35,305 nt of DNA. Source: Fibrobacter succinogenes. Lineage in GTDB: Bacteria; Fibrobacterota; Fibrobacteria; Fibrobacterales; Fibrobacteraceae. The stretch covers positions 1 to 35,305 of the forward strand of contig CACXKY010000007.1 of NCBI GenBank assembly GCA_902768325.1, written 5' to 3'. The notes beneath the pieces were generated by a model. The model searched no databases. It worked only from the letters and a program-made list of their open reading frames with translations, and had not been told where the DNA came from. This document shows, piece after piece, positions 5,787 through 22,566 of the stretch. Position numbers and translations under genes: made by a program. How positions within the stretch are numbered: position 1 is the first letter of the stretch; every line of letters starts with the position of its first letter.

Positions 5787-5858
5787 ATGTGTTTGGAGGG
5801 CCCTTTTGGAGTTGTTCAAAAAGTTTTGCTTTATTTCAAGGTTTGTAATGACGAATAA
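5787..5858 (+). CDS. Possible leader peptide overlapping the RNase E/G start
   Basis: A 23-codon open reading frame beginning at an ATG preceded by AGGAGGG with ideal spacing (5775-5781), the best ribosome-binding site in this stretch. It encodes MCLEGPFGVVQKVLL and a further eight residues, then stops with TAA at 5856-5858. That stop is 11 bases past the first base of the ATG of the RNase E/G gene, in a different frame. Overlap of this kind could couple translation of the two. It may instead be chance, with the ribosome-binding site serving nothing, so confidence is limited. Confidence 0.4.
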   Translation: MCLEGPFGVVQKVLLYFKVCNDE

Positions 5859-8800
5859 GTGTAAGCGTGGAATTCTGATCAGCAAGACTCCCTATGAGAA
5901 ACGCTTTGCCATCATGGAAGATGGGGAATTGGCGGAACTCATTGTCGAGGGGGCGTCTTCTGAACAGGTTCTCGGCAATATTTATAAGGGCATTGTGAAG
6001 AAGGTCGTTCCTTCCGCGAAGCTCGCCTACGTCGATATAGGGCTCGGGATGGATGGCGTCCTCTACCAGGAGGATGCGGTGGACCGTAACGCTTCGCCGA
6101 ACCGTAGGGGCGGCGATGACGATGACGGCGAGGCTTTCGACGAGGTCGCTATCGAGAAGGTGCTTCGCGAAGGCGACGAGATTATGGTGCAGGTGTCCAA
6201 GGAGCCCATCCCCGGCAAGGGCGCTGTCTTGACGATGCGCCTGCTCTTTGCGGGCAGCTACCTGGTTTGCATGCCCGGTACGAATTTCATTGGCGTTTCC
6301 AAGCGCGAACGCGACCCTGCCAAGCGCAGCGAGTTCAAGAGGATGATCAACCGCCTCAAGGCACACGACGTAGGCTACATCGTGCGTACCGAGGGCATGA
6401 ACGCCTCCGAAGACCAGATTGTGCAGCAGATGCGCGAGCTGGAAAGCCGTTGGGCCAGGACGAAGGATCGCTTCGATGCCGATGCGGCCCCGTCCTGCAT
6501 CTACGAAGATTCCAATTCTATCAACCGCGCTATCGGCGACTACTTCAACGGCAATACGGACTACGTCTATATCGACAACCGTGACGAATATTTCGCCCTG
6601 CGCGATTGCCTCAGGGAAGTGGCTCCGGATATGCTGGACAAGGTCAAGCTCTGGAGCTCCAGCGAGAGCCTGTTCGAATACTTCAAGATTGAAAACGATT
6701 TCGCCCGCTCCCTGCAGCGCCAGGTACCGCTTCCGCGCGGTGGAAACCTCGTCATCGAGCAGACCGAGGCGCTTACCTCCATCGACGTGAATACGGGTCC
6801 GAAGGTCCATGGCAAGGACCAGGGCAAGATTATCCTCGAGACGAACATCGACGCCTGTCGCGAAATCGCGAAGCAGCTTCGACTCAGGGACGTGGACGGC
6901 ATCACGATTATCGACTTTATCGATATGGAATCCGACGCGGACCGCGAAACGGTCTACCAGGAATTCTGCAAGGCCGTCCGTCGCGACAAGGCCGAAGTCA
7001 CGCCTTCCCCGATTAGCCAGTTCGGCTTGATGGAAGTGACGCGCAAGCGCATCCGTGAGACGGCCGGCAAGACGAAGTTCTGCCCGGTGTGTAGCGGCGG
7101 TGGCCGTATTGCCACGCTGGAATCGGCGCTCGGCATGATCGACCGCTGGATGGCCCGCGCCCATGCGAAGGGCAACCTCCGTGAAGTGACGCTCGTGGTG
7201 AGCGCTCCTCTGGTGGAGGTCCTCGTTCGTGACCGCGCCCGCATGCTCCATTACCTGGAATTCAAGCACAAGATGAGCGTCGAGCTCATCGAAGACGATC
7301 ACGCCCACGTGAACCAGTTCTGGATGTACAATTCCGAGAAGGAAGACATCACGGACCTCTACAACTTCGCCGAGATGGACAAGAGCGAAATGCGCGCGGT
7401 TGTCCCCAAGCGCCGCAACGAACGCGGCCGCAACAAGGTGAAGCGCGAGATCCTCATCAGCAAGACTCCGTACGAAAAGCGTATCGCTATCATGGAAGAC
7501 GGCGAGCTTGCCGAACTCGTGGTGGAGAGCGTCTCTTCGACCCGCGTGCTGGGCAACATCTACAAGGGCGTGGTACAGAAGGTATTGCCCGCGCTCAAGG
7601 CTGCATTTGTCGATATCGGTATGGAAAAGGCCGGATTCCTGCATCAGGACGACGCCATGGACCGTAACGAGCTGTTGCGCCGCGAATACGGTGACGACGA
7701 CGACGAAGGCGGCCCGTCCAAGGAAATCTCTATCGACGAGATCCTGAAGGAAGGCCAGGAGATCATGGTGCAGGTGGTGAAGGAACCGATCAGCACCAAG
7801 GGCGCCCGACTCACGACGCATTTGAGCTTTGCCGGACGTTTCCTCGTGTGTATGCCGGGGACGAACTTCATCGGCGTTTCCAAGCGCGAACGCGACCCCG
7901 CCAAGCGCCGCGAGTTCAAGAAGGTGGTCCGCCGCCTCAAGGCCCGCGACGTGGGTTATATCGTGCGTACGAACGGCCTTATCGAGTCCGAGTTCGAAAT
8001 CCAGAAGCAGATGCGCGAACTGGAAAGCAAGTGGGAACAGACGAAGTACAACTTCGCCTGCCAGCCTCCGGAAACGTGTATCTACGAGGAATCCGATTCC
8101 ATCGAACAGACCGTCCGCGAATACTTCGGCGAGAATACCGACTTCGTGTACATCGACAACCGCGAGGAATACCTCGCCCTGCGCGATTACCTGAAGGTGC
8201 TTTCTCCGGACAAGCTCGACAAGGTGAAGCTCTGGAACAAGAGCGAAAGCCTCTTCGAACATTTCAAGATTGAGAATGAATACGCACGCTCCCTGCAGCG
8301 CCGCATCCCGCTCGGCAACAACGGCAACCTCGTTATCGAACAGACGGAAGCGCTCGTGTCCATCGATGTGAACATGGGCCGTAACCGCGGTAAGGATTCG
8401 AACAAGGTCGCCCTCGAGACGAACCTCCTCGCCTGCCGCGAGATTGCGAAGCAGCTGCGCCTTAGGGACGTGGGTGGCCTTATCATCATCAAGTTCCTCG
8501 TCATGAATTCGGATAGCGACCGCGAGGCCGTGTTCCAGGAATTCCGCAGGTCTATCCGCCGCGACAAGGCGCCGATCAGCCCCGCGCAGATTGGCCAGTT
8601 CGGCGTGATGGAAGTGACCCGCAAGCGCGTGCGCGTGAACCTCATGACCGAGAAGACGGAACTCTGCCCGGTATGCCATGGCGGTGGCCGCATTGCCACG
8701 CTGGAATCCACGCTCGGCATGATCGACCGCTGGATGTCCCGCGCCTATGCCAAGGGTAAGCTCCGCGAAGTTACTTTGGTTGTAAGTCCGCGCCTGGTGG

Positions 8801-8958
8801 ACGAACTCTGCAAGGACGACTTGCGCATCTACCGTTATCTGGAAGCCAAGCACAACATGAAAATCAACCTCGTCGAAGACGAGTACGCCCATGTGAGCCA
8901 GTTCTGGATGTACGACAAGAACAAGGAAGACATCACGGACCAGTTCAACAACGTGTAG
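5848..8958 (+). CDS. Tandem-duplicated RNase E/G fusion; second copy catalytically altered
   Basis: A 1036-residue protein containing two complete RNase E/G modules: residues about 5-515 and 532-1036, joined by a basic linker (VPKRRNERGRNKVKR). RNase E/G endonucleases cut single-stranded RNA in mRNA decay and rRNA maturation. Copy 1 keeps the magnesium site (Asp313, Asn315, Asp356 in IIDFIDM), the 5'-monophosphate sensor pair Arg180-Thr181 and the zinc-link cysteines Cys412/Cys415. Copy 2 keeps Asp840, Asn842, Arg707-Thr708 and Cys940/Cys943, but the equivalent of E. coli RNase E Asp346 is Lys882 (IIIKFLVM), so it should not cleave. The start at ATG 5848 matches the start of copy 2 homology. 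A TTG at 5806 with GGAGGG five bases upstream would add 14 residues and cannot be excluded. A terminator follows. Confidence 0.93.
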   Translation: MTNKCKRGILISKTPYEKRFAIMEDGELAELIVEGASSEQVLGNIYKGIVKKVVPSAKLAYVDIGLGMDGVLYQEDAVDRNASPNRRGGDDDDGEAFDEVAIEKVLREGDEIMVQVSKEPIPGKGAVLTMRLLFAGSYLVCMPGTNFIGVSKRERDPAKRSEFKRMINRLKAHDVGYIVRTEGMNASEDQIVQQMRELESRWARTKDRFDADAAPSCIYEDSNSINRAIGDYFNGNTDYVYIDNRDEYFALRDCLREVAPDMLDKVKLWSSSESLFEYFKIENDFARSLQRQVPLPRGGNLVIEQTEALTSIDVNTGPKVHGKDQGKIILETNIDACREIAKQLRLRDVDGITIIDFIDMESDADRETVYQEFCKAVRRDKAEVTPSPISQFGLMEVTRKRIRETAGKTKFCPVCSGGGRIATLESALGMIDRWMARAHAKGNLREVTLVVSAPLVEVLVRDRARMLHYLEFKHKMSVELIEDDHAHVNQFWMYNSEKEDITDLYNFAEMDKSEMRAVVPKRRNERGRNKVKREILISKTPYEKRIAIMEDGELAELVVESVSSTRVLGNIYKGVVQKVLPALKAAFVDIGMEKAGFLHQDDAMDRNELLRREYGDDDDEGGPSKEISIDEILKEGQEIMVQVVKEPISTKGARLTTHLSFAGRFLVCMPGTNFIGVSKRERDPAKRREFKKVVRRLKARDVGYIVRTNGLIESEFEIQKQMRELESKWEQTKYNFACQPPETCIYEESDSIEQTVREYFGENTDFVYIDNREEYLALRDYLKVLSPDKLDKVKLWNKSESLFEHFKIENEYARSLQRRIPLGNNGNLVIEQTEALVSIDVNMGRNRGKDSNKVALETNLLACREIAKQLRLRDVGGLIIIKFLVMNSDSDREAVFQEFRRSIRRDKAPISPAQIGQFGVMEVTRKRVRVNLMTEKTELCPVCHGGGRIATLESTLGMIDRWMSRAYAKGKLREVTLVVSPRLVDELCKDDLRIYRYLEAKHNMKINLVEDEYAHVSQFWMYDKNKEDITDQFNNV

Positions 8959-9079: not shown

Positions 9080-12000
9080 TTATTTCGTCGGGTCGAGCGT
9101 TATGCCGTTCTCTTTGCCGCGGCGAACGCCCCACAAGAAGTCACGTGTCGTATGCTTGATGACTTCTTCGTCAATCGTAATCTTGAATTCAAGCCTTGCG
9201 ATGTACACGCCCGTGGCGGCCAGCTTGCCCTTGTTGCTACGCATGTTCCAAGCGAGGAAGATCTTGCCGCTATTGGTAATGCAGTTCGCATCGGGGTCGT
9301 CTTCCTTGTACACCGGGTCTTCACAGCCGATCTTGCCGGACTGCCCGCCCACGAAGTGGCCGAGGTGCGAGTAGTAGTGCGTCTTGTAACTCAGGTGCAC
9401 CTGCTCGGGCGAAATCAGCGTGGAGTCGCCGCTGCGGAATGCATCGAGGTTCGAGGCGGTGAGCTTGTCGTTCTTGATGGCGTTGATGACGCGTTCGCTC
9501 ACGCCGGCATCCCTCAGCTTATCCGTCGAAATCGTACCGTTCTTGATCGCTTCGAATACCGCTTCCGCCGTGGCGTACTTGGCGAGGCTCGAGGTGATGG
9601 TGGTATCGATGCTGTTCGTGATGCTCGTGTTGACGAGTTCGTTGAACGCGCGCTTGTCGTCGTCGGAAAGCATCGGACTGGTGGTGAGGTTGCTAGCGGT
9701 AATCTTGCCTTCCTTGATGGCGTCGAGCACTTCTTCGCTGATGCCGTAGGCGCCACCGAGCCTATCGTTCTTGATATCGTCGATAAGCTTTGCCGTTGCC
9801 TCGGCCACGCTCATCTTGGTGATGGTCGTGTCGAAGGTTCCGCTGTTCATGAGCTGGTTGATGAAGGCATCCAGTTCGGCAATGTCTTCCTTCGTCTGGT
9901 CGCTGATAAGCGTACCGACGTCGAAGCTCACGAGGTGACCCTGTACACCGTATTCAGCCGCCACCTGTTCGACGCCCTTGGATTCTTCGGTCACGAGCTT
10001 GGGCACGGTCGAGGAATCGCTCTGTACGATCGGGTTGGACGGGTCGAGCGTTACGAGGCCCGCACTGGAAATGGTCATTTCCTGTTCACCCGTGATGCTT
10101 ACCCACGGGTTGTTCTTGTGCGCCCTGTTCTTCGAGAGGTCTTCGGCCGTCATGTGGTTGCCCGGCGTAAAGCGCACGAGGTCGCCCACGGAGGGAATCA
10201 CCTGGCTTACGGAGGATCCCACGAAGATAATGCTCATCATGTTCGCCGATTCGGCCGTCTGCGAAGTCGCCTTGATCGGTTCGGCCGCGACACCGGAACG
10301 GACGCAGGTGTACTGGAACATATCCGCATAGTACTTCTTGACGGAGTCGGTAATGGCTTCGCTGAAGGTGAGCGTCAAGATATGGTTCGTTGCATCCGAA
10401 ATCTTCTTGACGGCGGATTTGATAATCGGGTTCACGCCATCGCTCACGGGTTCGTTGCGGATGGTGAAGTGATAGTCCTTGCCGTTTTCCCTATAGGTGA
10501 TATAGGTCGTCATGTAGCCGGTGAATACGCCGGAATTGCTACCGGTGAACACGAGGCTTCCGAATCCGCAAGCCTTGTCCGGCTGGCAGGCGCCGGAAGT
10601 AAGTTCCAGGGTCTTGCCGTTGAAGGGCTTCACCTTCTGTTCCGGATGGTCTTCACCGAAGTTTACCTGCAGCGCGGTCAAGATGTTCTGCGAGTCGAAC
10701 GCCTTGTCCCAGGTGATGTGGAGGCTGTCGCCGCGTCCATCGCCGTTACGGTCGTAGAGCGTTGCGAGCTGCACATGCGGGATAGGCGGCTCGTCGAACT
10801 TGAGTTTCGTCCAGATAGCCGTCGAGGCCGCGGCGCCCTTCACTTGCAGGGTCGCGTCGGTTACGGGGCCGTTTGCCATCACGTAGAACGTCGCGCTCTT
10901 GCTCGCGGAATCAAGCGTCACCTTGCTGATGGGATTCCCGTCCTTGTCGAAAATGCCCACGAGCGGGTTCGACATGGAGATGTTCAGAATCTTATTGTAC
11001 GTAGTGACTTCCGCCCAGTCTTCTTCGAACTTGACGTTAACTTCGTACATTTCGTATGCCCAGCGGCCGAGCTGCAGCGTATCGCCGCTGATTTCCTTGC
11101 CGTATACCTTCTTCTTCTTTTCGTCGGTGAAGACGATGGTCGGTACGTTGTATTGCGGCACCGTGATGGACACCCTGGTAGACTGGCTCGGGTCGGCCTT
11201 GAGGGTGATGATCAGTTCGTAATGGCCGGGGCCGAGAGCGTAGTTTTCTACGATCTTCGTGGAGTCGATGCTGAAGCGTGCCGTACTCGGATCGATGGTG
11301 ATACCTTCGTAGTGGGTACCGACGCCGAGTTCCACGCCCTTTTCGCCGAGGTTTCCACCGATAAGGCGGAAGTTCGAGGGGCCTTCAACGGTATCGACTT
11401 CGGCAAGTGCGTTCGCGTTGAAGTCGCAGGAAAGCGCATCTTTCTTGACCACCTGCCAGATGTCGAAGTTCTTCACGGTGGCGACTACGTTGCCCGTGAG
11501 GAAGATGCTCGATTCGGTGTGCAGGTCCATGGACGTGCGCATCATGAAGTTGGAAGAGGAAACGTGGCGTTCCACGTAGAAGATGTGGAACGGGTATTCC
11601 TGGCCTTCAACGAGGCCGAGGGTATCGAGGTCCACAGAACCGAACACCTGCTGGTGCTGGCCGCCGAGGTCGACCACGAGGCGGTTGTTGATGAACACCC
11701 ACACGTCGTCGTCGCCGAAGAATTCAAAGTACTGGCCCTTCACGTATTCGAACTTCGCCTGGACCTTCATGGTGAAGCCAAAGTTGTGCCTCTTGCCATG
11801 TCCGGTTTCTTGGTCGAACATGGGGTTCTTCACGGTATTCGCCGCGTCAAGGTATTCAAAGTCATCAAGCAGGAAGAAACCGCCTTCGGGGCTCTGGTCG
11901 TCTTTCTGCCCGAGCCAGAAACCATCGTCGGTCATGTCGAGCTGAACGTCTCGACAAGTTGCGTTGGTGTATTCCTTGCCGGCGGCATCCTTACCGATGG

Positions 12001-12862
12001 TCACGGGCAGGAACCAGAAGTCGAGATAATCCGTCAGCCGGCAGTTTTCGGGGAAGCCCGTACTTTTGCGCGTCGGGACATTGCCCTGACCGAGCGTCGG
12101 TTCCACCATGCCAGCCATATAACCCATGCGGTTCTTGTCCTGGGTATTGCTACCGCCGCAGCCGCCGCTACCGAAATCGTTGCTGATCATGTAGGCCATG
12201 AGGAGGTCGGGATGAGCACCGCCAAGCTCCGGATTCTGGTCCTTGGCGCCGTTTCCGTAGGTCGTTTCCGTGGTGGTCGTGGAGTCCCTGTTGGTTCTTG
12301 TCCTTGTGGAGACTCCGCCATCGCCCTTGCTACCATGAAGCCAGTCGAACATCATCACGGACAAGGTCTTCACCGGGCATTCGCCTAAGCGCTGCGGGTA
12401 GGTGGAGTAGACCTCCGGGGCCAACGTATCCGGGTTGGCGATAATCCAGATGGTGTCGGTCTTGGCCGCCATCGTATCCAGTGTGATTTCTTCGCCTACC
12501 GGGAGTGCACCCGTCGCGACCTTCTCGATACCGTGGGTACCCACGTAGAGGTTACCGATGGTCTGCTTGAAGCGGACCTTGAAACCGCTTGCGGGTGCCG
12601 TCGTCTTGGCCTGGAACCAACCGCAGTAGTTTTTGACTGCGGTCATGACCGTTTCTTCGCCACCCTGGATGAGGATCGCGTTCGTGTTTGTCCATGTAGG
12701 CATAAAACGGATAACCGTATTCCCGGTTCCGTTCATATCGGGCGTTGTACCGCCTCTTCCGCCTCTTCCACCGGCTCCGCCGCGGCCGCCGATTTGTGCT
12801 TCTGCTGACAAAGCGAGGACTAGGCACAATACTAGTCCCCTTAAAAGGAATCTATACCACAT
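9080..12862 (-). CDS. Fibro-slime domain secreted surface protein (1260 aa)
   Basis: The start at 12862 is chosen because it has AGGAG eight bases upstream and opens a classic signal peptide (MWYRFLLRGLVLCLVLALSA, cleavage near residue 22). A mature Gly/Arg-rich stretch follows (GGRGGAGGRGGRGG). Residues about 35-160 hold a conserved domain with FMPTWTNTNAI and NYCGWFQAK. The fibro-slime domain (TIGR02148, PA14-like) spans about 285-440, with FLLDDFEYLD, KGQYFEFFGDDDVWVFINN (GDDDVW near residue 382) and SNFMMRTSMDLH. Ig-like modules follow, then a calcium-loop-like DRNGDGRGD near 702, two helical repeats (about 1008-1057 and 1084-1137), and a C-terminal domain ending in RDFLWGVRRGK. In Fibrobacter such proteins are outer-surface components linked to fibre attachment; this role is inferred. 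Its neighbour at 13086 is a paralogue. Confidence 0.9.
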   Translation of the reverse strand: MWYRFLLRGLVLCLVLALSAEAQIGGRGGAGGRGGRGGTTPDMNGTGNTVIRFMPTWTNTNAILIQGGEETVMTAVKNYCGWFQAKTTAPASGFKVRFKQTIGNLYVGTHGIEKVATGALPVGEEITLDTMAAKTDTIWIIANPDTLAPEVYSTYPQRLGECPVKTLSVMMFDWLHGSKGDGGVSTRTRTNRDSTTTTETTYGNGAKDQNPELGGAHPDLLMAYMISNDFGSGGCGGSNTQDKNRMGYMAGMVEPTLGQGNVPTRKSTGFPENCRLTDYLDFWFLPVTIGKDAAGKEYTNATCRDVQLDMTDDGFWLGQKDDQSPEGGFFLLDDFEYLDAANTVKNPMFDQETGHGKRHNFGFTMKVQAKFEYVKGQYFEFFGDDDVWVFINNRLVVDLGGQHQQVFGSVDLDTLGLVEGQEYPFHIFYVERHVSSSNFMMRTSMDLHTESSIFLTGNVVATVKNFDIWQVVKKDALSCDFNANALAEVDTVEGPSNFRLIGGNLGEKGVELGVGTHYEGITIDPSTARFSIDSTKIVENYALGPGHYELIITLKADPSQSTRVSITVPQYNVPTIVFTDEKKKKVYGKEISGDTLQLGRWAYEMYEVNVKFEEDWAEVTTYNKILNISMSNPLVGIFDKDGNPISKVTLDSASKSATFYVMANGPVTDATLQVKGAAASTAIWTKLKFDEPPIPHVQLATLYDRNGDGRGDSLHITWDKAFDSQNILTALQVNFGEDHPEQKVKPFNGKTLELTSGACQPDKACGFGSLVFTGSNSGVFTGYMTTYITYRENGKDYHFTIRNEPVSDGVNPIIKSAVKKISDATNHILTLTFSEAITDSVKKYYADMFQYTCVRSGVAAEPIKATSQTAESANMMSIIFVGSSVSQVIPSVGDLVRFTPGNHMTAEDLSKNRAHKNNPWVSITGEQEMTISSAGLVTLDPSNPIVQSDSSTVPKLVTEESKGVEQVAAEYGVQGHLVSFDVGTLISDQTKEDIAELDAFINQLMNSGTFDTTITKMSVAEATAKLIDDIKNDRLGGAYGISEEVLDAIKEGKITASNLTTSPMLSDDDKRAFNELVNTSITNSIDTTITSSLAKYATAEAVFEAIKNGTISTDKLRDAGVSERVINAIKNDKLTASNLDAFRSGDSTLISPEQVHLSYKTHYYSHLGHFVGGQSGKIGCEDPVYKEDDPDANCITNSGKIFLAWNMRSNKGKLAATGVYIARLEFKITIDEEVIKHTTRDFLWGVRRGKENGITLDPTK

Positions 12863-12868
12863 TCCCAC

Positions 12869-12942
12869 CGCTCCTTTAATTACCCCGACCCTTGTCGGGA
12901 GCGTCACATAGTAAATATCGCTTTTTATTTGGCCCAAGTCAA
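12869..12942 (-). promoter_or_regulatory. Promoter and structured 5' leader of the first fibro-slime gene
   Basis: On the minus strand TTGACT (12942-12937) and GATATT (12919-12914) are 17 bases apart, a good sigma-70-type promoter. The predicted leader starts near 12905. It contains a perfect hairpin CCCGAC-AAGG-GTCGGG (12899-12884) directly after the start. The hexamer CGCTCC (12903-12898) is exactly complementary to GGAGCG (12874-12869), which contains the Shine-Dalgarno sequence. Pairing of the two could hide the ribosome-binding site. The promoter and the complementarity are seen; a regulatory role is inference. Confidence 0.55.
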
Positions 12943-13085: not shown

Positions 13086-16000
13086 TTACAGCCCGAGGTC
13101 CGATTTGCTGATCCTTCCGTGGCGTACGCCCCAGAGGAAGTCCCTAGTCTGGTTGCTGATGCTCTTGCCGTTGACGGTGACCTTCAGTTCCAGGCGCGCG
13201 ATGTAGACTCCCGTGCCGGCAATTCGGCCGTTCGTGGCGCGCATGCTCCAGGCGAGGAAGAAGCGGCCTTCGCTATCGAGGCAGTTTTCTGCACCGTCCT
13301 GCTTGAAGATGGAATCGGTACAGGAAATCGAGCCGGAATGCATGTTCACGAAGTGCCCGAGGCTGGTGTAGTAATGCGACTCGTACTTCATTTCCGTATG
13401 GGCGGCGACGGTTTGCGCGATCATCTGGATGTCTTCCTCGGTACCGCTTGCGTAGTAGTGGAGGTTATCCAGGGTCAAGAGGCCGTTTTCGTAGGCTTCC
13501 ACGATGATGTCGCTCAGGCCGAAACGTTCCTGGGCGTCGTCGATGGATATCTTGCCGCTGCTGACCATGGTGAGGATGTCCTCGATGGTGTACGGCTCGG
13601 ACGATTCGCCGTTTTCGGCTGCGTTCTTGTCGACGTAGCTGGAGGTGGACTGGATGGCCTTCACGATTTCGGCGATTTCGTTCTTGACGAGTTCGCCCAT
13701 GTCGAGGTCACCCAGGTAATGGCCCTGCGTGCCGTAGATGGCCGCCACCTGCTTGGCCGTAAGTCCGCCGCCGTTGGGGACGAGCTTGGGGATGGTGGCG
13801 GTGTCGCTGCGCATGATGACGCGGGCGCTGTCGAATGTCGGGGCGTTCCTGTCGAGGTCCACGACGGTCGGGCTCGTAATACGCACGCTCTGTTCGCCGG
13901 TAATGCGTACCCAGGGGTTCAGCTCGTGCGGCGGGACTTCTTCGAGGTCGAGCGCGAGGCCGCCTATGGAGGGCGGTGCGAACCTCACGGAGTCGCCGAC
14001 GGCGGGAACCACGTCGGTAATCTTGCTCTTGACGAACACGAGGGTCCACTGGTTCGCCGGGGTCGTCTTGATGTGCGCCGGAGCGATCAGGTTCGAGCTT
14101 TGGCCTTCGCCTCCCCTGCTGCGGAACATGAACAGGTTGGCGTTCTTGCCGTCGTCGATGATGCCTTCGCTGAACGTGAGCTTGAGTTCGCTGTTGCCTT
14201 CGGATGATATCTGGATTTCGGCGGAGGTGATGACGGGGCCGACCTTGTCCATCAGCGGGCCGTCAACGGGGAATATGGCCTCCTTGCCGGTCTCTTCGTC
14301 GATGTAGGTGTAATAGATGTCCAGCTTGCCGGTATAGGGCTTCGAGGAGCCTCCGGTGAAGATGGCCGGGCTGAAGCTGTTGCCGGCAGAGGTGATGGTC
14401 GCGACGGAATCGCCGTCCTTGTAGGTAATCTTGTGCTGGCTGCTCGACGCCTTATGGTAGGCGCTGTCGGTCGTACCGAAGGTGAAGTGGATGGAGTCGA
14501 GCACGTTCGAGCCGCCCAGGGCCTTCTTGAAATGGATCCACACGCTATCGGCGCGTCCGTCACCGTTGCGGTCGTACATGTAGGCGCTTTCGATTTGCGG
14601 TACGGGCGGTTCCTTCAGGTTGATCTTGGTCCAGGCGACGCTTTCGTTCTTGGCGGCGGTCTTGACGGTCATGGTCGCGTTCACGACTTCGCCCAAGCCC
14701 TTGATGTAGAAGGTAGCGCGGCCGGAATCCAGGACGACTTCCTTGATGACGTTGCCGACGGAATCGCAAGCGACGAGCAGGGTGTCGGACATGGAAATGG
14801 TGGCCTTGATGCCGCTGTACATAATGGCCCAGTCTTCGGCGTACATGATGTTCACCTGGTAGAGCCTGCCTGCCCACATCTTTTCGTTCAGGTTCAGGTT
14901 GACCGGCAGCGTATCGCTAGAGACGTCGCGGCTGGAATCCGTACCGAAGGGCGCCCAGTACTGGCTGAAGCAGAGGGAGTCGCCTTCTTCGGATTCGATG
15001 TCCAAGATGCAGTAGCTCGAGTCGGTGATGCTTGCGTAGGCGATGTTCGGCAGTTCGTACGGGTCGACGGTGAAGTAGACGTCCTTGTAGTCGGCGGGGT
15101 TCGTCTTGAGCGAGACGCGCACGAAGTAGGTTCCCGGCGGCAGGGCCTGTGCCTTGCTGATGGCCTTAGGGTCGATGGTGAGCAACGTGTAGTCGTTGCC
15201 GATGGTGATGCCGCTGTAGTAGAGGGAGTCGAGGACGTTGAGCGGGATGCCCTTGGAATCGAGGCTACGCCCGAACAACACGAAGTTCGACGGTCCGAGT
15301 TCGGTGGATTCCTTTTCGGGTTCCGAAGAGAAGTCGCAGGCGAGCACGCGTTCGCGGATCTTTTGCCAGACTTCCTTCTTGATGAGGTCCGGATCGTCCG
15401 AGATATCGGTGAGGAACATGCTCGATTCCACATGCAGGTCGATGGAGGTACGCATCATGAAGTTCGAGGCTTCGCGCTTGCGTTCTGCGTAGAAGATGTG
15501 GAAGTTGTAGGTGGAATCTTCGATAAGGCCGAGCTTGTCCAGGTCGACGGATTTCTTGACTTTCTTGTGCTGGCCGCCGATGTCGACCACGAGCTTGTTG
15601 TCGATGAACACCCACACGTCGTCGTCGCCGTTGAATTCGAAGTACTGCCCCTTCACGTACTGGAAGGTGGCCTGGATTTTCATGGCGAAGCTGTAGTTGT
15701 GGTATTCGCGCTTGCCGTTCACTTCGAGGCCCACGATGGAGTCGTAGTGGACGTTTTCGACGGTCTGGGCGCTGTCCAAGTAGCGGAAGTCGTCGAGCAG
15801 GAAGAGGCCGCCTTCGGGGCTTTCGTCGTCGACCTGGGCGTACCAGAAGCCGTCATCGGTCAAGGAAAGGCTGATTTCGCGGCAGGTGACGTTCGTGTAT
15901 TCGTTGCCGGCGTCGTCGGTCGCGATGACTTGCGGCAGGAACCATTCGTTCAAGTGGGTCGAATTCTTACAACCGCTGGGGAAGTCGGAGGCCATTACGG

Positions 16001-17021
16001 GGACTCCGTTTGCACCGAGTTCCTTTTCGACCATGCCGGTCATGGGGTTGCCTTCGCAGCCGCCCTGGCCGAAGTCCAGGTTGGTGCCTTCGCCGAACAT
16101 GGGGACGCCGCGCGCATCGAAACCGTTGCGGCCTGCGCCCTTCTTGCGGTCATAGAGGCCGTCTTCGCTGCCATCGGAGTTCACGGAACCGTCATACCAG
16201 TCGAACATCATGACGGGGAGGTTCTTGATGGGGCAATCGCCGAGGACTTCCGGGTATTTCGTGGAGATGTCCGGGGCGCCAAACTGGTAGGCGTATACCC
16301 AGACGGTGTCCGATTCCTTCAGCACGGAGTCGAGATCGATTTCGTTCTCGATGGAGATGGAATCCTTGGTGACGCCCTCGTTGCCGACGAACGTTCCGCC
16401 GATGGTCTGCTTGAAGAATACGGTGAACTTGTCGTCTTTGGGCGGGGTGACCTTGGCTTCGAACCATCCGCAGTAATTGGGGACGGCCGTCATGAAGTTT
16501 TCGTCGAGGCCGTTCACGTACATGATGGCGTTCGTGCTGGTCCAGGTCGGGAAAAAGCGGATGACCTTCTTTTCGGAGACGGGCTGCGTATCGGGCTTTG
16601 TCTTGGAAAGGGTAAGGGTGCTGTCGTCGTTGATGATAATCCAGATTTCGGCAATGGGCTGGTCATCGACGCCGTTCTTGTAATCGGGGAAAAGTTCGGA
16701 GAGGAAGGGTTCGTGGCCTTCGTTCAAGTTCTTGCGGCAGGTGTTGCCGTTGCAGCTCAAGCCGAAGCGCAATTGGCGCACGTCTTCACGGCCTTGCCTG
16801 TCGGAACCTTCGAGGCGTTCCTGCGTGAAGTAGATGGTGAAATAGCCGTCCTCTTCCTTGGTGAGGGACTGGTACTTGAAATTGGACTCGTTGTCAGCGT
16901 AATAGAGGGAATTACCGTCGTAAAAGACGTGTGCGACCGCCACATAGTCGGCGGCATTCGAGAAAACAACAAACGGAGCCAAGCACAATGCCAAGCTCCG
17001 GAGTAGGCTGGTAAACCTCAT
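13086..17021 (-). CDS. Fibro-slime domain secreted surface protein (1311 aa)
   Basis: The start at ATG 17021 has GGAG six bases upstream and opens a signal peptide (MRFTSLLRSLALCLAPFVVF, cleavage after SNA). A TTG at 17033 is also in frame but poorly placed. Compared with the paralogue at 9080 it has an extra N-terminal domain of about 110 residues (two cysteines, CNGNTC) before the shared FFPTWTSTNAI/NYCGWFEAK domain. The fibro-slime domain has GDDDVWVFIDN near residue 464 and SNFMMRTSIDLH. DRNGDGRADS lies near 816 and one helical repeat near 1144-1195. The C-terminus (FLAWSMRATNGRIAGTGVYI, then RDFLWGVRHGR) closely matches the paralogue, so both probably use the same surface sorting route. 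Type IX secretion is a possibility for this lineage but is not shown here. Confidence 0.9.
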   Translation of the reverse strand: MRFTSLLRSLALCLAPFVVFSNAADYVAVAHVFYDGNSLYYADNESNFKYQSLTKEEDGYFTIYFTQERLEGSDRQGREDVRQLRFGLSCNGNTCRKNLNEGHEPFLSELFPDYKNGVDDQPIAEIWIIINDDSTLTLSKTKPDTQPVSEKKVIRFFPTWTSTNAIMYVNGLDENFMTAVPNYCGWFEAKVTPPKDDKFTVFFKQTIGGTFVGNEGVTKDSISIENEIDLDSVLKESDTVWVYAYQFGAPDISTKYPEVLGDCPIKNLPVMMFDWYDGSVNSDGSEDGLYDRKKGAGRNGFDARGVPMFGEGTNLDFGQGGCEGNPMTGMVEKELGANGVPVMASDFPSGCKNSTHLNEWFLPQVIATDDAGNEYTNVTCREISLSLTDDGFWYAQVDDESPEGGLFLLDDFRYLDSAQTVENVHYDSIVGLEVNGKREYHNYSFAMKIQATFQYVKGQYFEFNGDDDVWVFIDNKLVVDIGGQHKKVKKSVDLDKLGLIEDSTYNFHIFYAERKREASNFMMRTSIDLHVESSMFLTDISDDPDLIKKEVWQKIRERVLACDFSSEPEKESTELGPSNFVLFGRSLDSKGIPLNVLDSLYYSGITIGNDYTLLTIDPKAISKAQALPPGTYFVRVSLKTNPADYKDVYFTVDPYELPNIAYASITDSSYCILDIESEEGDSLCFSQYWAPFGTDSSRDVSSDTLPVNLNLNEKMWAGRLYQVNIMYAEDWAIMYSGIKATISMSDTLLVACDSVGNVIKEVVLDSGRATFYIKGLGEVVNATMTVKTAAKNESVAWTKINLKEPPVPQIESAYMYDRNGDGRADSVWIHFKKALGGSNVLDSIHFTFGTTDSAYHKASSSQHKITYKDGDSVATITSAGNSFSPAIFTGGSSKPYTGKLDIYYTYIDEETGKEAIFPVDGPLMDKVGPVITSAEIQISSEGNSELKLTFSEGIIDDGKNANLFMFRSRGGEGQSSNLIAPAHIKTTPANQWTLVFVKSKITDVVPAVGDSVRFAPPSIGGLALDLEEVPPHELNPWVRITGEQSVRITSPTVVDLDRNAPTFDSARVIMRSDTATIPKLVPNGGGLTAKQVAAIYGTQGHYLGDLDMGELVKNEIAEIVKAIQSTSSYVDKNAAENGESSEPYTIEDILTMVSSGKISIDDAQERFGLSDIIVEAYENGLLTLDNLHYYASGTEEDIQMIAQTVAAHTEMKYESHYYTSLGHFVNMHSGSISCTDSIFKQDGAENCLDSEGRFFLAWSMRATNGRIAGTGVYIARLELKVTVNGKSISNQTRDFLWGVRHGRISKSDLGL

Positions 17022-17079
17022 CCGAATCTCCAATTCCCTAACGTAACCTCTTATCCTAGATGGACTTAAAGATAATTTT

Positions 17080-19297: not shown

Positions 19298-20899
19298 TCA
19301 ATCCATGACGCAGCGGACGGCAAATGAATATCCTAAATCGTGGATTTGGAAGCTTACCGCGTCTGGTTCAATCTCTATACGGGTCGTTTTGAAGAGTCCT
19401 CCCGCAAGTTCCATTTCATAGGGTGTGGATGTCCAATAAGTGGCGCTGTTGGAACCGACATAGTCAAGAAATCCAGAGCCGTAGGCATAGAATCCTGCAC
19501 TATAGGAGTTAAACCCGTATTCGTCCGAGCTGAAGTCGTCAGCAGCTATCAATGCATTTGCCGCTACGTCTTCTCCACCGACAGTTTCAATGAGCTGTTC
19601 CCACTCGCCTCTTGAAGGCAGGTGCCAGCCTTCGGGACAGACACCTCGCGAAGATTCTGTCAGATTAGCGGCAGGACTTGCAACGAAACCGTTACCGCCG
19701 CAACCGAGACCCCCGTTGCCGAACAGCCCGGCCGAATCGACGGCTGCCGCGAAGGGGTAGAGCCTTCCATAAGCGTCGCAGTTTTCTTGCTTGTTTTCGT
19801 GGCAAAGGGAGTGCGTTATTTCGGTTTGGTAGTCGTAGTTCAGGTTTTCGGCCATCCATACCTGTTCGCCGATTTGGACGGTCTTATAGGTATGTCCGTC
19901 CCTTTCGTCAGTCAAGGTTCCATAAACGCCTTTGTAGTTGCTTGAATTCTTGTTTGTGGACTCCCAGCGGACCCCGTTGCAGACAAATTGTTCGCCTGTT
20001 CGCTTGCTCAAGGGGTTCATGTTTTGAGTCGTGTCGCCCATGTTGGAGTTACTGCACTTGCCGAGCCCGTAGTTGTCGGCCCAGAACATGCTGATATTTT
20101 TTTCGAAGTCGGGTAGGGAATCGGAGAAGCCCCAGCCGAGGATGTTCTCCTTGACAGTTCCGTACATGTTGCGCTGATCCATTTCGCAGGCCCAGTCCGC
20201 AACGGCGGTTCTTGTTGCCTGGTCGTTCCAGGAGCCGTTCTCGGCCAGTTCCATGGCAAATTTTCCCAAGCGTTCTGTGAGCCCGGCAACGTCCTCGTCG
20301 CCCTGCAGCAGGATGCTTATGGCCAAAAGCTTCGCGTTGCCTTCGCCGGACTTGAAGATGTCTAGATCTTCGAAGGCGTCGCTGGATTCGTTCATGGCCA
20401 TGGTCGTAAGGATTTCTCTGTCGGCTTGGGCCTTGGCGTCGGTGACGGATTTCCCTTCGGAGACAAGTTTCTTCACGCGTTCGTATTCCAAGTGAGTGAG
20501 CAGGTTGACATTGACGATTTCACGGTTGCTGAGGTCGGTGATGGCGTTTAGTGTCAGCGGTCCCGAAGACTTTTTCCCGGTGATTTCGTTGCGATAGTAG
20601 CCGTTCACTTCTAGCAAAGCGTATTGGGAAGCGAGTTCGTTGCCTTCGATGGAAAAATCGCCCTTGTCGCTCTTGATGGACGACTTGAATATCTTTCCCG
20701 TCTGGATCAACGAATTTCCTTCGAGTTCCAAAACGTTTACCGTGGAACCTGTAACGAAGGGGCCTTTCTGGGATACGCCTTCGACGTTCCATTTTCCGAG
20801 AGGCTGGCTTTTTGTTTCTATTTCGGTTTCACTTGTAAAGTTGTCGGAACAACCCCAGAAGATCAAGGCGGTCAAGGATAAGATATATATGGGTTTCAT
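19298..20899 (-). CDS. FISUMP-domain lipoprotein, second gene after the regulator
   Basis: The start at 20899 is chosen because AAGGA lies seven bases upstream and it opens a lipoprotein signal (MKPIYILSLTALIFWGC, Cys17). The tryptophan before the Gly-Cys is unusual for a lipobox. Residues about 32-230 form a domain with VSQKGPFVTGSTVNVLELEG, ALLEVNGYYRNEITGKKSSG and NVNLLTHLEYERVKKLV, a beta-sandwich plus helical layout seen in secreted proteins of Bacteroidetes and Fibrobacter. The last 200 residues are a FISUMP domain (VQIGEQVWMAENLNY, YGRLYPFAAA, CPEGWHLPS, FAVRCVMD). The protein is 533 residues. The paralogue upstream ends 38 bases before it, so they form one operon. Confidence 0.88.
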   Translation of the reverse strand: MKPIYILSLTALIFWGCSDNFTSETEIETKSQPLGKWNVEGVSQKGPFVTGSTVNVLELEGNSLIQTGKIFKSSIKSDKGDFSIEGNELASQYALLEVNGYYRNEITGKKSSGPLTLNAITDLSNREIVNVNLLTHLEYERVKKLVSEGKSVTDAKAQADREILTTMAMNESSDAFEDLDIFKSGEGNAKLLAISILLQGDEDVAGLTERLGKFAMELAENGSWNDQATRTAVADWACEMDQRNMYGTVKENILGWGFSDSLPDFEKNISMFWADNYGLGKCSNSNMGDTTQNMNPLSKRTGEQFVCNGVRWESTNKNSSNYKGVYGTLTDERDGHTYKTVQIGEQVWMAENLNYDYQTEITHSLCHENKQENCDAYGRLYPFAAAVDSAGLFGNGGLGCGGNGFVASPAANLTESSRGVCPEGWHLPSRGEWEQLIETVGGEDVAANALIAADDFSSDEYGFNSYSAGFYAYGSGFLDYVGSNSATYWTSTPYEMELAGGLFKTTRIEIEPDAVSFQIHDLGYSFAVRCVMD

Positions 20900-20937
20900 G
20901 CGATGGTCCTTTTTTGAAAATTTTTTATGAGACGAAA

Positions 20938-22566
20938 TCAATCTATTATGCAACGGACGGGAAAAGCTGTGTTTGGATTAAAGCCGCATTGGAAATTGGG
21001 GGAGGCTATGTTATCCTGATCTATGTTGAAAATCAGGAGACAGGAATATAAACCGTACGATTTTACTCCCGATGTCGCCCAGTAAAATACGCCGTTGTAA
21101 TAGCCCTCTATGTTATTGGTATGGATAATGTTGAAACCGTAGTCGTCAGTGCCGATTCCGTCGGCCGTTCTCAATACGGTTGCCGCCTTGACCGCCCCGC
21201 CTACCGTCGTGAGTAGTTGTTCCCATTCGTTTTTCGAGGGGAGGTGCCATCCTTCTGGACAGACTCCCCGAGGAGAGTCTTTCAGGGTGCAATTGTCGCT
21301 ACGGGCATCATCAGCATGGCCGCAACCGAGGCCCCCGTCGCTGAACAGTCCGGCAGAATCAACTGCAGCCGCGAAGGGGTAGAATCTGCCGAACTTGGTG
21401 CAGTTTTCTTCCAAATCCTGGTAACAGAGGGAGTGGGTTATTTCTGTTTGGTAGTTATAGTTCAGGTTTTCGGCCATCCATACCTGTTTCCCGATTTTAA
21501 CAGTCTTGTAGGTGTGTCCGTCCCTTTCGTCGATCAAGGTTCCGTATGTTCCCTTGTAGTTGCTGGTCCTTTTGTTGGCGAAAACCCACTTGGCACTGTC
21601 GCAGACAAAGTATTCCCCATATCGCTTGCTCAGGGCGTTCGTGTTCACGGCGGTATCGCCCTTGTTGGAATCGCTGCACTTGCCGAGCCCGTAGTTGTCG
21701 GCCCAGAACTGGTTGGCATACTTCTCGAAGTCGGGCAGGGAATCGGAAATGCCCCATTTGAGAATGTTTTCCCTGATACCGGAAAAGCCGTGACCAGAAT
21801 CGTCTTCGTCGGGCTCGTCGTCATGGAAATCGTTGAGCAGTTCCATTTCGTAAGCCCAGTCCGCAATGGTGGTTCTTGTCACCGAATCGTTCCACGAGCC
21901 GCTTCGGGCGAGTTCCATCGAGAACTTCCCTAGGCGTTCCGTGAATCCGGCAACGTCCTCGTCGCCTTGCAGCAAGATGCTTATGGCCAAGAGCTTTGCG
22001 TTGCCTTCGCCGGATTTGAAGATGTCCAGGTCTTCGAAGGCGCCGCTGGATTCGTTCATGGCCATGGTTTCAAGGATTTCTCTTTCCGCTTGGGCCTTGG
22101 CGTCCGCGACGGATTTCCCTTCGGCGACCAACTTCTTCACCCGTTCAAATTCCAGATGGGTGAGCAGATTGACGTTGACGTTCTTGCGGTTGCTAAGATC
22201 AGTGATGGCGTTCAATGTCAGCGGTCCCGAGGACTTTTTCCCGGTGATTTCGTTGCGGTAATAGCCGTTCACTTCTAGCAGGGCGTACTGCGAGGCGAGT
22301 GAGGAGCCCGAGACGACAAAATCTCCCTTGTCGCTCTTAATGGACGACTTGAATACTTTTCCCGTTTGAAGCAACGAGTTTCCACCCAGTTCCAGGACGC
22401 TTACCGTAGAGCCGGTAATAAAGGGCCCCTTCTGGGACACGCCTTCGACTTTCCATTTCTCGAGGGCCACGATACCCTGATCTATACTGGTGCCGCCCGC
22501 AACCTCGCTATCGGAACACCCTAGGAACAGCAGGGATGCAAAAAACAAAATAAGAGTAGCGATCAT
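20938..22566 (-). CDS. FISUMP-domain lipoprotein, first gene after the regulator
   Basis: A 542-residue paralogue of the product of 19298-20899. The signal peptide ends in a normal lipobox (LFLGC, Cys17), and GGAGG precedes the ATG. The N-terminal 200 residues are nearly the same as in the paralogue, down to long runs of shared bases. A short acidic insertion (DDEPDEDDSGHG) follows the helical region. The C-terminal FISUMP domain starts at about residue 340 (VKIGKQVWMAENLNY), continues with FGRFYPFAAAVDSAG and CPEGWHLPSKNEW, and ends in FPVRCIID. The C-terminal half differs much more from its sister than the N-terminal half. It begins one base after the stop codon of the TIGR02147 regulator, so expression is coupled. 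Confidence 0.88.
   Translation of the reverse strand: MIATLILFFASLLFLGCSDSEVAGGTSIDQGIVALEKWKVEGVSQKGPFITGSTVSVLELGGNSLLQTGKVFKSSIKSDKGDFVVSGSSLASQYALLEVNGYYRNEITGKKSSGPLTLNAITDLSNRKNVNVNLLTHLEFERVKKLVAEGKSVADAKAQAEREILETMAMNESSGAFEDLDIFKSGEGNAKLLAISILLQGDEDVAGFTERLGKFSMELARSGSWNDSVTRTTIADWAYEMELLNDFHDDEPDEDDSGHGFSGIRENILKWGISDSLPDFEKYANQFWADNYGLGKCSDSNKGDTAVNTNALSKRYGEYFVCDSAKWVFANKRTSNYKGTYGTLIDERDGHTYKTVKIGKQVWMAENLNYNYQTEITHSLCYQDLEENCTKFGRFYPFAAAVDSAGLFSDGGLGCGHADDARSDNCTLKDSPRGVCPEGWHLPSKNEWEQLLTTVGGAVKAATVLRTADGIGTDDYGFNIIHTNNIEGYYNGVFYWATSGVKSYGLYSCLLIFNIDQDNIASPNFQCGFNPNTAFPVRCIID

Follow-up and report, generated by a model that had tools for sequence, protein, structure and literature searches.

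A fused tandem RNase E/G in Fibrobacter: reciprocal loss points to a likely asymmetric dimer in one chain

RNase E initiates the decay of most E. coli mRNA. The described enzymes of the RNase E/RNase G family (Rne/Rng; PF10150, TIGR00757) are single-module chains that form homodimers or tetramers. In the E. coli enzyme, the dimer interface lies between the DNase I domains, the S1 region and the 5' sensor move together as one body, and the literature describes an RNA held by one subunit and cut by its partner, an arrangement that a review also states for 5'-P substrates (PMC3997798). This cross-subunit site was inferred mainly from crystal structures. The uracil pocket of E. coli RNase E consists of F67, F57 and the K112-G-A-A loop (PMC6538622; PMC5222698).

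The window studied here, a stretch of 35,305 nucleotides of Fibrobacter succinogenes DNA, contains a gene that shares with this family its RNase H-like, S1, 5' sensor and DNase I regions, its zinc link and its small domain, and that differs from it by having two modules in one chain, each with different losses. The forward frame runs uninterrupted from an ATG at position 5848, in agreement with the conserved beginning of single-module relatives (MANKCKRGILISK), to a stop at 8958, and encodes 1036 amino acids. The RNase_E_G family PF10150 matches this protein twice, at 543 bits against a cut-off of 25.5, as does the NCBIfam family TIGR00757, at 783 bits against a cut-off of 326. Both halves align with E. 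coli RNase E structures such as 2bx2 and 2vmk, and copies 1 and 2 are 65% identical over about 505 residues. All the sequence criteria tested place the fused protein in the RNase E/G family; it does not meet the usual form of one module per chain, and the sharing of one chain by two modules is what sets it apart from the known enzymes. Table 1 gives the coordinates of its parts.

Table 1. Features of the fused RNase E/G gene, in window coordinates
Feature	Position	Strand	Remarks
Fused tandem RNase E/G, whole gene	5848..8958	+	1036 aa and stop; same architecture in 19 other Fibrobacter genomes
Copy 1 module, residues 1-507, predicted catalytic half	5848..7368	+	D303/N305/D346/D349 equivalents kept in 20/20
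S1 and 5'-sensor region, copy 1, residues ~40-226, fast evolving	5965..6525	+	F67 equivalent is Val71, F57 equivalent is Tyr61
Val71 replacing uracil-pocket Phe67, copy 1	6058..6060	+	Phe lost in 20/20 fusions, kept in all single genes
Arg180-Thr181, 5'-phosphate sensor pair, copy 1, kept	6385..6390	+
DNase I subdomain, copy 1, residues ~290-410, slow evolving, metal site intact	6715..7077	+
Asp313 to Asn315, metal-site residues, copy 1	6784..6792	+
Asp356, second catalytic Asp, copy 1	6913..6915	+
Cys412-Pro-Val-Cys415, zinc link, copy 1	7081..7092	+
Linker, residues 508-529, basic	7369..7434	+	no start codon conserved among fusions
Copy 2 module, residues 530-1036, predicted RNA-binding half with dead metal site	7435..8955	+
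S1 and 5'-sensor region, copy 2, residues ~566-753	7543..8106	+	dN/dS 0.02-0.04; 0 conserved positions lost
Phe597, uracil-pocket Phe67, copy 2	7636..7638	+	kept in 20/20
Arg707-Thr708, 5'-phosphate sensor pair, copy 2	7966..7971	+
DNase I subdomain, copy 2, residues ~817-937, relaxed, metal site lost	8296..8658	+
Lys882 at the catalytic Asp346 position	8491..8493	+	Lys in 20/20 fusions, Asp in all single genes
Cys940-Pro-Val-Cys943, zinc link, copy 2	8665..8676	+

That copy 2 might be translated on its own, from a start inside the frame, is disfavoured: no methionine is conserved at the junction among the 20 fusions compared. On the opposite strand, an open frame of 1018 amino acids (window 5836-8892, minus strand) spans nearly the whole gene, and long antisense frames are also found opposite the gene in relatives, with 867 amino acids in L133 and 878 in L117. 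These frames are probably a by-product of codon usage.

Residues were mapped onto the numbering of E. coli RNase E and compared across the 20 fusions and the single-module genes. The metal-site residues D303, N305, D346 and D349, invariant in single-module genes, are retained in copy 1 of all 20 fusions; in the window, copy 1 has a complete site in which D313, N315 and D356 stand for D303, N305 and D346. In copy 2 of the same gene, D840 and N842 still correspond to D303 and N305, with K882 in the place of D346 and V885 in the place of D349. Across the fusions, D346 of copy 2 has become a lysine every time and D349 is changed in 19 of the 20, while D303 is altered in nine (seven Lys, two Asn) and N305 in five. 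Since the lysine is invariant while neighbouring residues drift, it likely has a role: it could conceivably hold an RNA phosphate, although there are no RNA-binding data. In one sublineage (L014-L020), copy 2 is without the loop that follows D303, the equivalent of GPKVHGKD, and D303 is itself a lysine; the dead site is decaying further there.

The RNA-binding surfaces show losses in the other copy. All single-module genes retain Phe57, Phe67 and K112. In copy 1, Phe67 is lost in every fusion (Val in 18, Ile in one, Ser in one), as is the arginine at position 115 that the single genes of the genus carry beside the K112 loop; Phe57 is a tyrosine in 11 of the 20, K106 is lost in 11, and K112 is retained in 18. 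Copy 2 meets the definition of the uracil pocket by F57, F67 and K112 (PMC6538622) in 20/20 fusions, and also retains the position-115 arginine and K106 in all of them. The 5'-sensor pair R169-T170 and both zinc-link cysteines are present in both copies of all 20 fusions. It is possible that the sensor of copy 1 keeps some phosphate binding, or that R169-T170 is structural there. One single-module gene, L058 (G128), seems to be without part of the 5'-sensor region, including R169-T170, which may be an assembly fault.

These comparisons bear on a preliminary description made from the sequence alone. It had claimed two full-length RNase E/G modules head to tail, identified D313, N315, D356, Lys882 and Val885 as the residues at the two metal sites, and stated that the Arg-Thr pair and the zinc-link cysteines are kept in both copies: all three claims held, the first by the double family matches in the 1036-residue frame, the second by the E. 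coli-numbered mapping, and the third in all the fusions. Its suggestion of a covalent enzyme/pseudoenzyme pair, in which copy 2 serves for RNA binding or 5'-end sensing, is supported by the comparative data. It needs correction on copy 1, which is not an ordinary intact enzyme, its uracil pocket being lost; the degeneration of the S1 and 5'-sensor regions had gone unnoticed.

In order to count losses, we call a position conserved when 95% or more of the single genes share its residue, and count a loss once per position, by majority. Among 90 conserved positions in the RNase H-a, S1 and 5'-sensor regions, copy 1 lost 22 and copy 2 lost none; among 57 conserved positions in DNase I, eight are lost in copy 2 and four in copy 1, where the metal ligands are spared. 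The pattern of loss by region and copy gives a Fisher exact p = 2.7e-5. This majority count keeps the large number of related sequences from inflating the test; positions are treated as independent, and the value is a rough guide.

Rates of evolution follow the same division. On a fixed topology, the ratio of total branch length of copy 1 to that of copy 2 is 9.0 for RNase H-a, 10.5 for S1 and 15.0 for the 5' sensor, against 1.7 for RNase H-b, 0.54 for DNase I and 0.58 for the zinc/small region: copy 1 evolves 10-15 times faster than copy 2 in the S1 and 5'-sensor regions, and copy 2 about twice as fast as copy 1 in DNase I. Pairwise dN/dS, computed on close and non-independent pairs of fusions, is 0.137 for S1, 0.164 for the 5' sensor and 0.049 for DNase I in copy 1, and 0.040, 0.021 and 0.135 respectively in copy 2; the zinc/small region is about equal in the two copies (0.079 and 0.088). 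Every value is far below 1, thus neither half is a pseudogene and both are under purifying selection. The most constrained part of the fused protein is the RNA-gripping region of its catalytically dead copy 2. The degeneration, the rates and the selection pattern are established for both halves.

The cross-subunit arrangement of E. coli RNase E predicts this pattern of loss. In the model that we propose, the ancestral homodimer would have had a pair of equivalent composite sites, in each of which the S1/5'-sensor surface of one subunit was combined with the DNase I metal site of the other. As the module tree described below shows, an ordinary single-module gene was duplicated in frame, head to tail, once, within Fibrobacter; joined in one chain, the two subunits would have become free to differ. 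One composite site would have been kept, in which copy 2 grips the RNA with its uracil pocket and 5'-phosphate sensor and the metal site of copy 1 cuts it. The reverse site, made of the S1/sensor surface of copy 1 and the metal site of copy 2, would have decayed on both sides, and the halves would face each other in the same chain, joined at the DNase I interface and by a zinc held in common. A model in which each module binds and cuts its own RNA is disfavoured, because one copy would then be expected to stay intact and the other to lose everything.

We consider it likely that the protein is a covalent asymmetric RNase E/G dimer in which copy 2 binds and copy 1 cuts, with the reservation that cutting by copy 1 and pairing within the chain are inferred, without biochemistry. 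Some observations go against the model: copy 1 keeps its sensor pair in 20/20 fusions and K112 in 18/20, and has lost the four conserved DNase I positions counted above. An AlphaFold2 model of the fusion, computed from an alignment of 20 sequences, has a pLDDT of 50.6 and a pTM of 0.27, and gives no support for intramolecular pairing. Pairing of copy 1 with copy 2 between two chains is compatible with the same data, which do not decide between the two possibilities; pairing within the chain is the simpler view.

How widespread is this architecture? The survey covers 168 genomes of one phylum, Fibrobacterota, and the distribution is known for that phylum only. A fused frame of 1033-1078 amino acids is found in 20 genomes, including the window's own, out of 80 Fibrobacter genomes, and all 20 belong to this one genus; in the remaining Fibrobacter genomes with a readable gene, the open frame is about 517-613 amino acids long and holds one module. 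The fusion is absent from all 47 genomes of other genera whose match was examined in detail; the 41 further genomes of other genera gave no match or are outside this comparison. In Fibrobacterota, the architecture is thus not general, and it is patchy within its genus. One single-module RNase E/G, L087 (G134), is split over two frames, which may be an assembly fault of a metagenome bin.

The preliminary description had named three outcomes that would tell against it: a second, single-module RNase E/G gene together with absence of the fusion from related genomes, an active copy 2, and an assembly error. No second RNase E/G match was found in the window's own genome, a 2.9 Mb assembly of 231 contigs that is 85.5% complete. 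Nine fusion genomes that are 98-100% complete contain exactly two RNase_E_G matches each, both within the fused frame: the fusion is the only RNase E/G in those nine species, and therefore must do the job alone. Neither the window's own genome nor these nine yielded an RNase J that passes the family cut-off, and the window's own genome yielded no RNase Y above the cut-off. The sequence is against an active copy 2, with a lysine for the catalytic aspartate in all the fusions. Chance and an assembly error are both excluded as the source of the fusion, which recurs in 20 Fibrobacter genomes with the same lysine at D346.

In a tree of 114 modules, all copies 1 form one group and all copies 2 another, with support of 99-100 each. 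Because each group is monophyletic, the duplication happened once, at a time before these species diverged or passed the gene between them. Single-module genes of the genus share about 83-86% identity with copy 2 and only about 72% with copy 1. In trees of the markers rpoB, gyrB, dnaK and alaS, fused and single-module species are adjacent: rpoB and gyrB, for instance, pair single-module G069 with fused G103 as sisters at full support, and a single group of fused species is rejected on the concatenated marker tree (AU p = 4e-4). Individual markers conflict with one another, possibly from recombination among Fibrobacter species or from mixed bins, and the concatenated tree is a guide only. Since the modules are monophyletic while fused and single species intermingle, it is probable that fused and single forms were exchanged or replaced at the locus. 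Three single-module genes, L029 (G069), L047 and L083 (G094, G097), lie in hosts whose rpoB and gyrB group with those of fused species. The marker rpoB itself was not found in 35 of the 80 Fibrobacter genomes, including nine that are 90% or more complete, nor in the window's own assembly; binning loss is the probable cause.

A gene for an M23 peptidase lies upstream of fused and single genes alike, where the sequence reaches, and also in other genera; the locus is therefore the ancestral site. The two forms may be able to substitute for each other. Elsewhere in the window, two neighbouring proteins of about 1300 amino acids (9080-12937 and 13086-17033, both on the minus strand) each have a PA14 domain, and relatives of the first are found downstream of RNase E/G in many Fibrobacter genomes. 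A Fib_succ_major domain occurs in three proteins, at 1813-2409 on the plus strand and at 19298-20953 and 20938-22566 on the minus strand, the last two being adjacent and overlapping.

Among other readings, the one that survives best goes beyond divided labour. Copy 2 would bind and copy 1 cut in trans, and the discarded site of copy 2 would have been rebuilt as a basic RNA anchor that does not cut: this second channel would hold a second RNA segment uncut and help direct the entry of structured RNA. In its favour, Lys882 is invariant while D303 and N305 drift, and D303 has also become a lysine in seven of the 20 fusions; the charge-reversed double mutant D303R/D346R is the form of the enzyme used for RNA co-crystallisation (PMC6202311); and two RNA segments in two channels have been proposed to speed cleavage by the E. 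coli enzyme (PMC2948425). However, the partner S1 surface of that channel, which belongs to copy 1, is without a base pocket, and no RNA-binding data exist, so that we regard this reading as no more than possible. If true, the fusion would be the counterpart of tRNase Z(L) among bacterial RNase E enzymes, and would offer a test by evolution of whether one subunit of RNase E binds and the other cuts, as has been claimed.

A less probable alternative is an ordinary dimer formed by the copies 1 of two chains, copy 2 being an appended RNA-binding or scaffold domain without a shared active site. Pairing between chains is possible, as RNase E forms dimers of dimers, and copy 1 retains both R169-T170 and its zinc cysteines. 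However, this arrangement would leave the dimer without any intact uracil pocket, F67 being lost in copy 1 of every fusion, and the pocket of copy 2 would face no active site, yet it is under the strongest constraint (dN/dS 0.02-0.04); we hold this alternative to be unlikely. The remaining one, that copy 2 is merely decaying after duplication, functionless and on its way to loss, can point to a vanished metal site and to the catalytic-loop deletions of sublineage L014-L020, but is very unlikely and largely refuted by a copy 2 that evolves more slowly outside the DNase I and zinc/small regions, that has lost 0/90 conserved positions in its RNase H-a, S1 and 5'-sensor regions, with a dN/dS there of 0.02-0.04, and that carries the identical lysine at its dead site in 20/20 fusions.

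We thus return to the divided-labour reading and to the systems with which it can be compared. No description of a tandem or fused RNase E/G was found in the open-access literature searched. The nearest relatives, the single-module RNase E/G of other Fibrobacter, occupy the same locus and differ in having one module, with catalytic and RNA-binding residues all intact. In the fused form, evolution has uncoupled RNA gripping from cutting: in twenty genomes, one half preserves the gripping surface and the other the metal site, a split not easily explained if each module is self-sufficient in binding and cutting. The fusion also offers biochemists, without engineering, an RNase E/G pair in which an active and a dead site have defined places.

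The closest parallel is by analogy, not homology. In tRNase Z(L)/ELAC2, a homodimeric RNA endonuclease underwent tandem duplication and fusion, after which one half retained the RNA-binding arm without the metal site and the other retained the metal site without the arm (PMC3714273); a comparable division is proposed for the Fibrobacter fusion. The two systems differ in that tRNase Z(L) has a metallo-beta-lactamase fold, is eukaryotic, processes tRNA, and has its catalytic half at the C-terminus, whereas that of the fusion would be N-terminal; no metallo-beta-lactamase or tRNA-binding-arm family is among the Pfam or NCBIfam matches of the fused protein. The Fibrobacter fusion would be a bacterial addition to the homodimeric nucleases that, like tRNase Z(L), have turned into divided-labour enzymes of a single chain.
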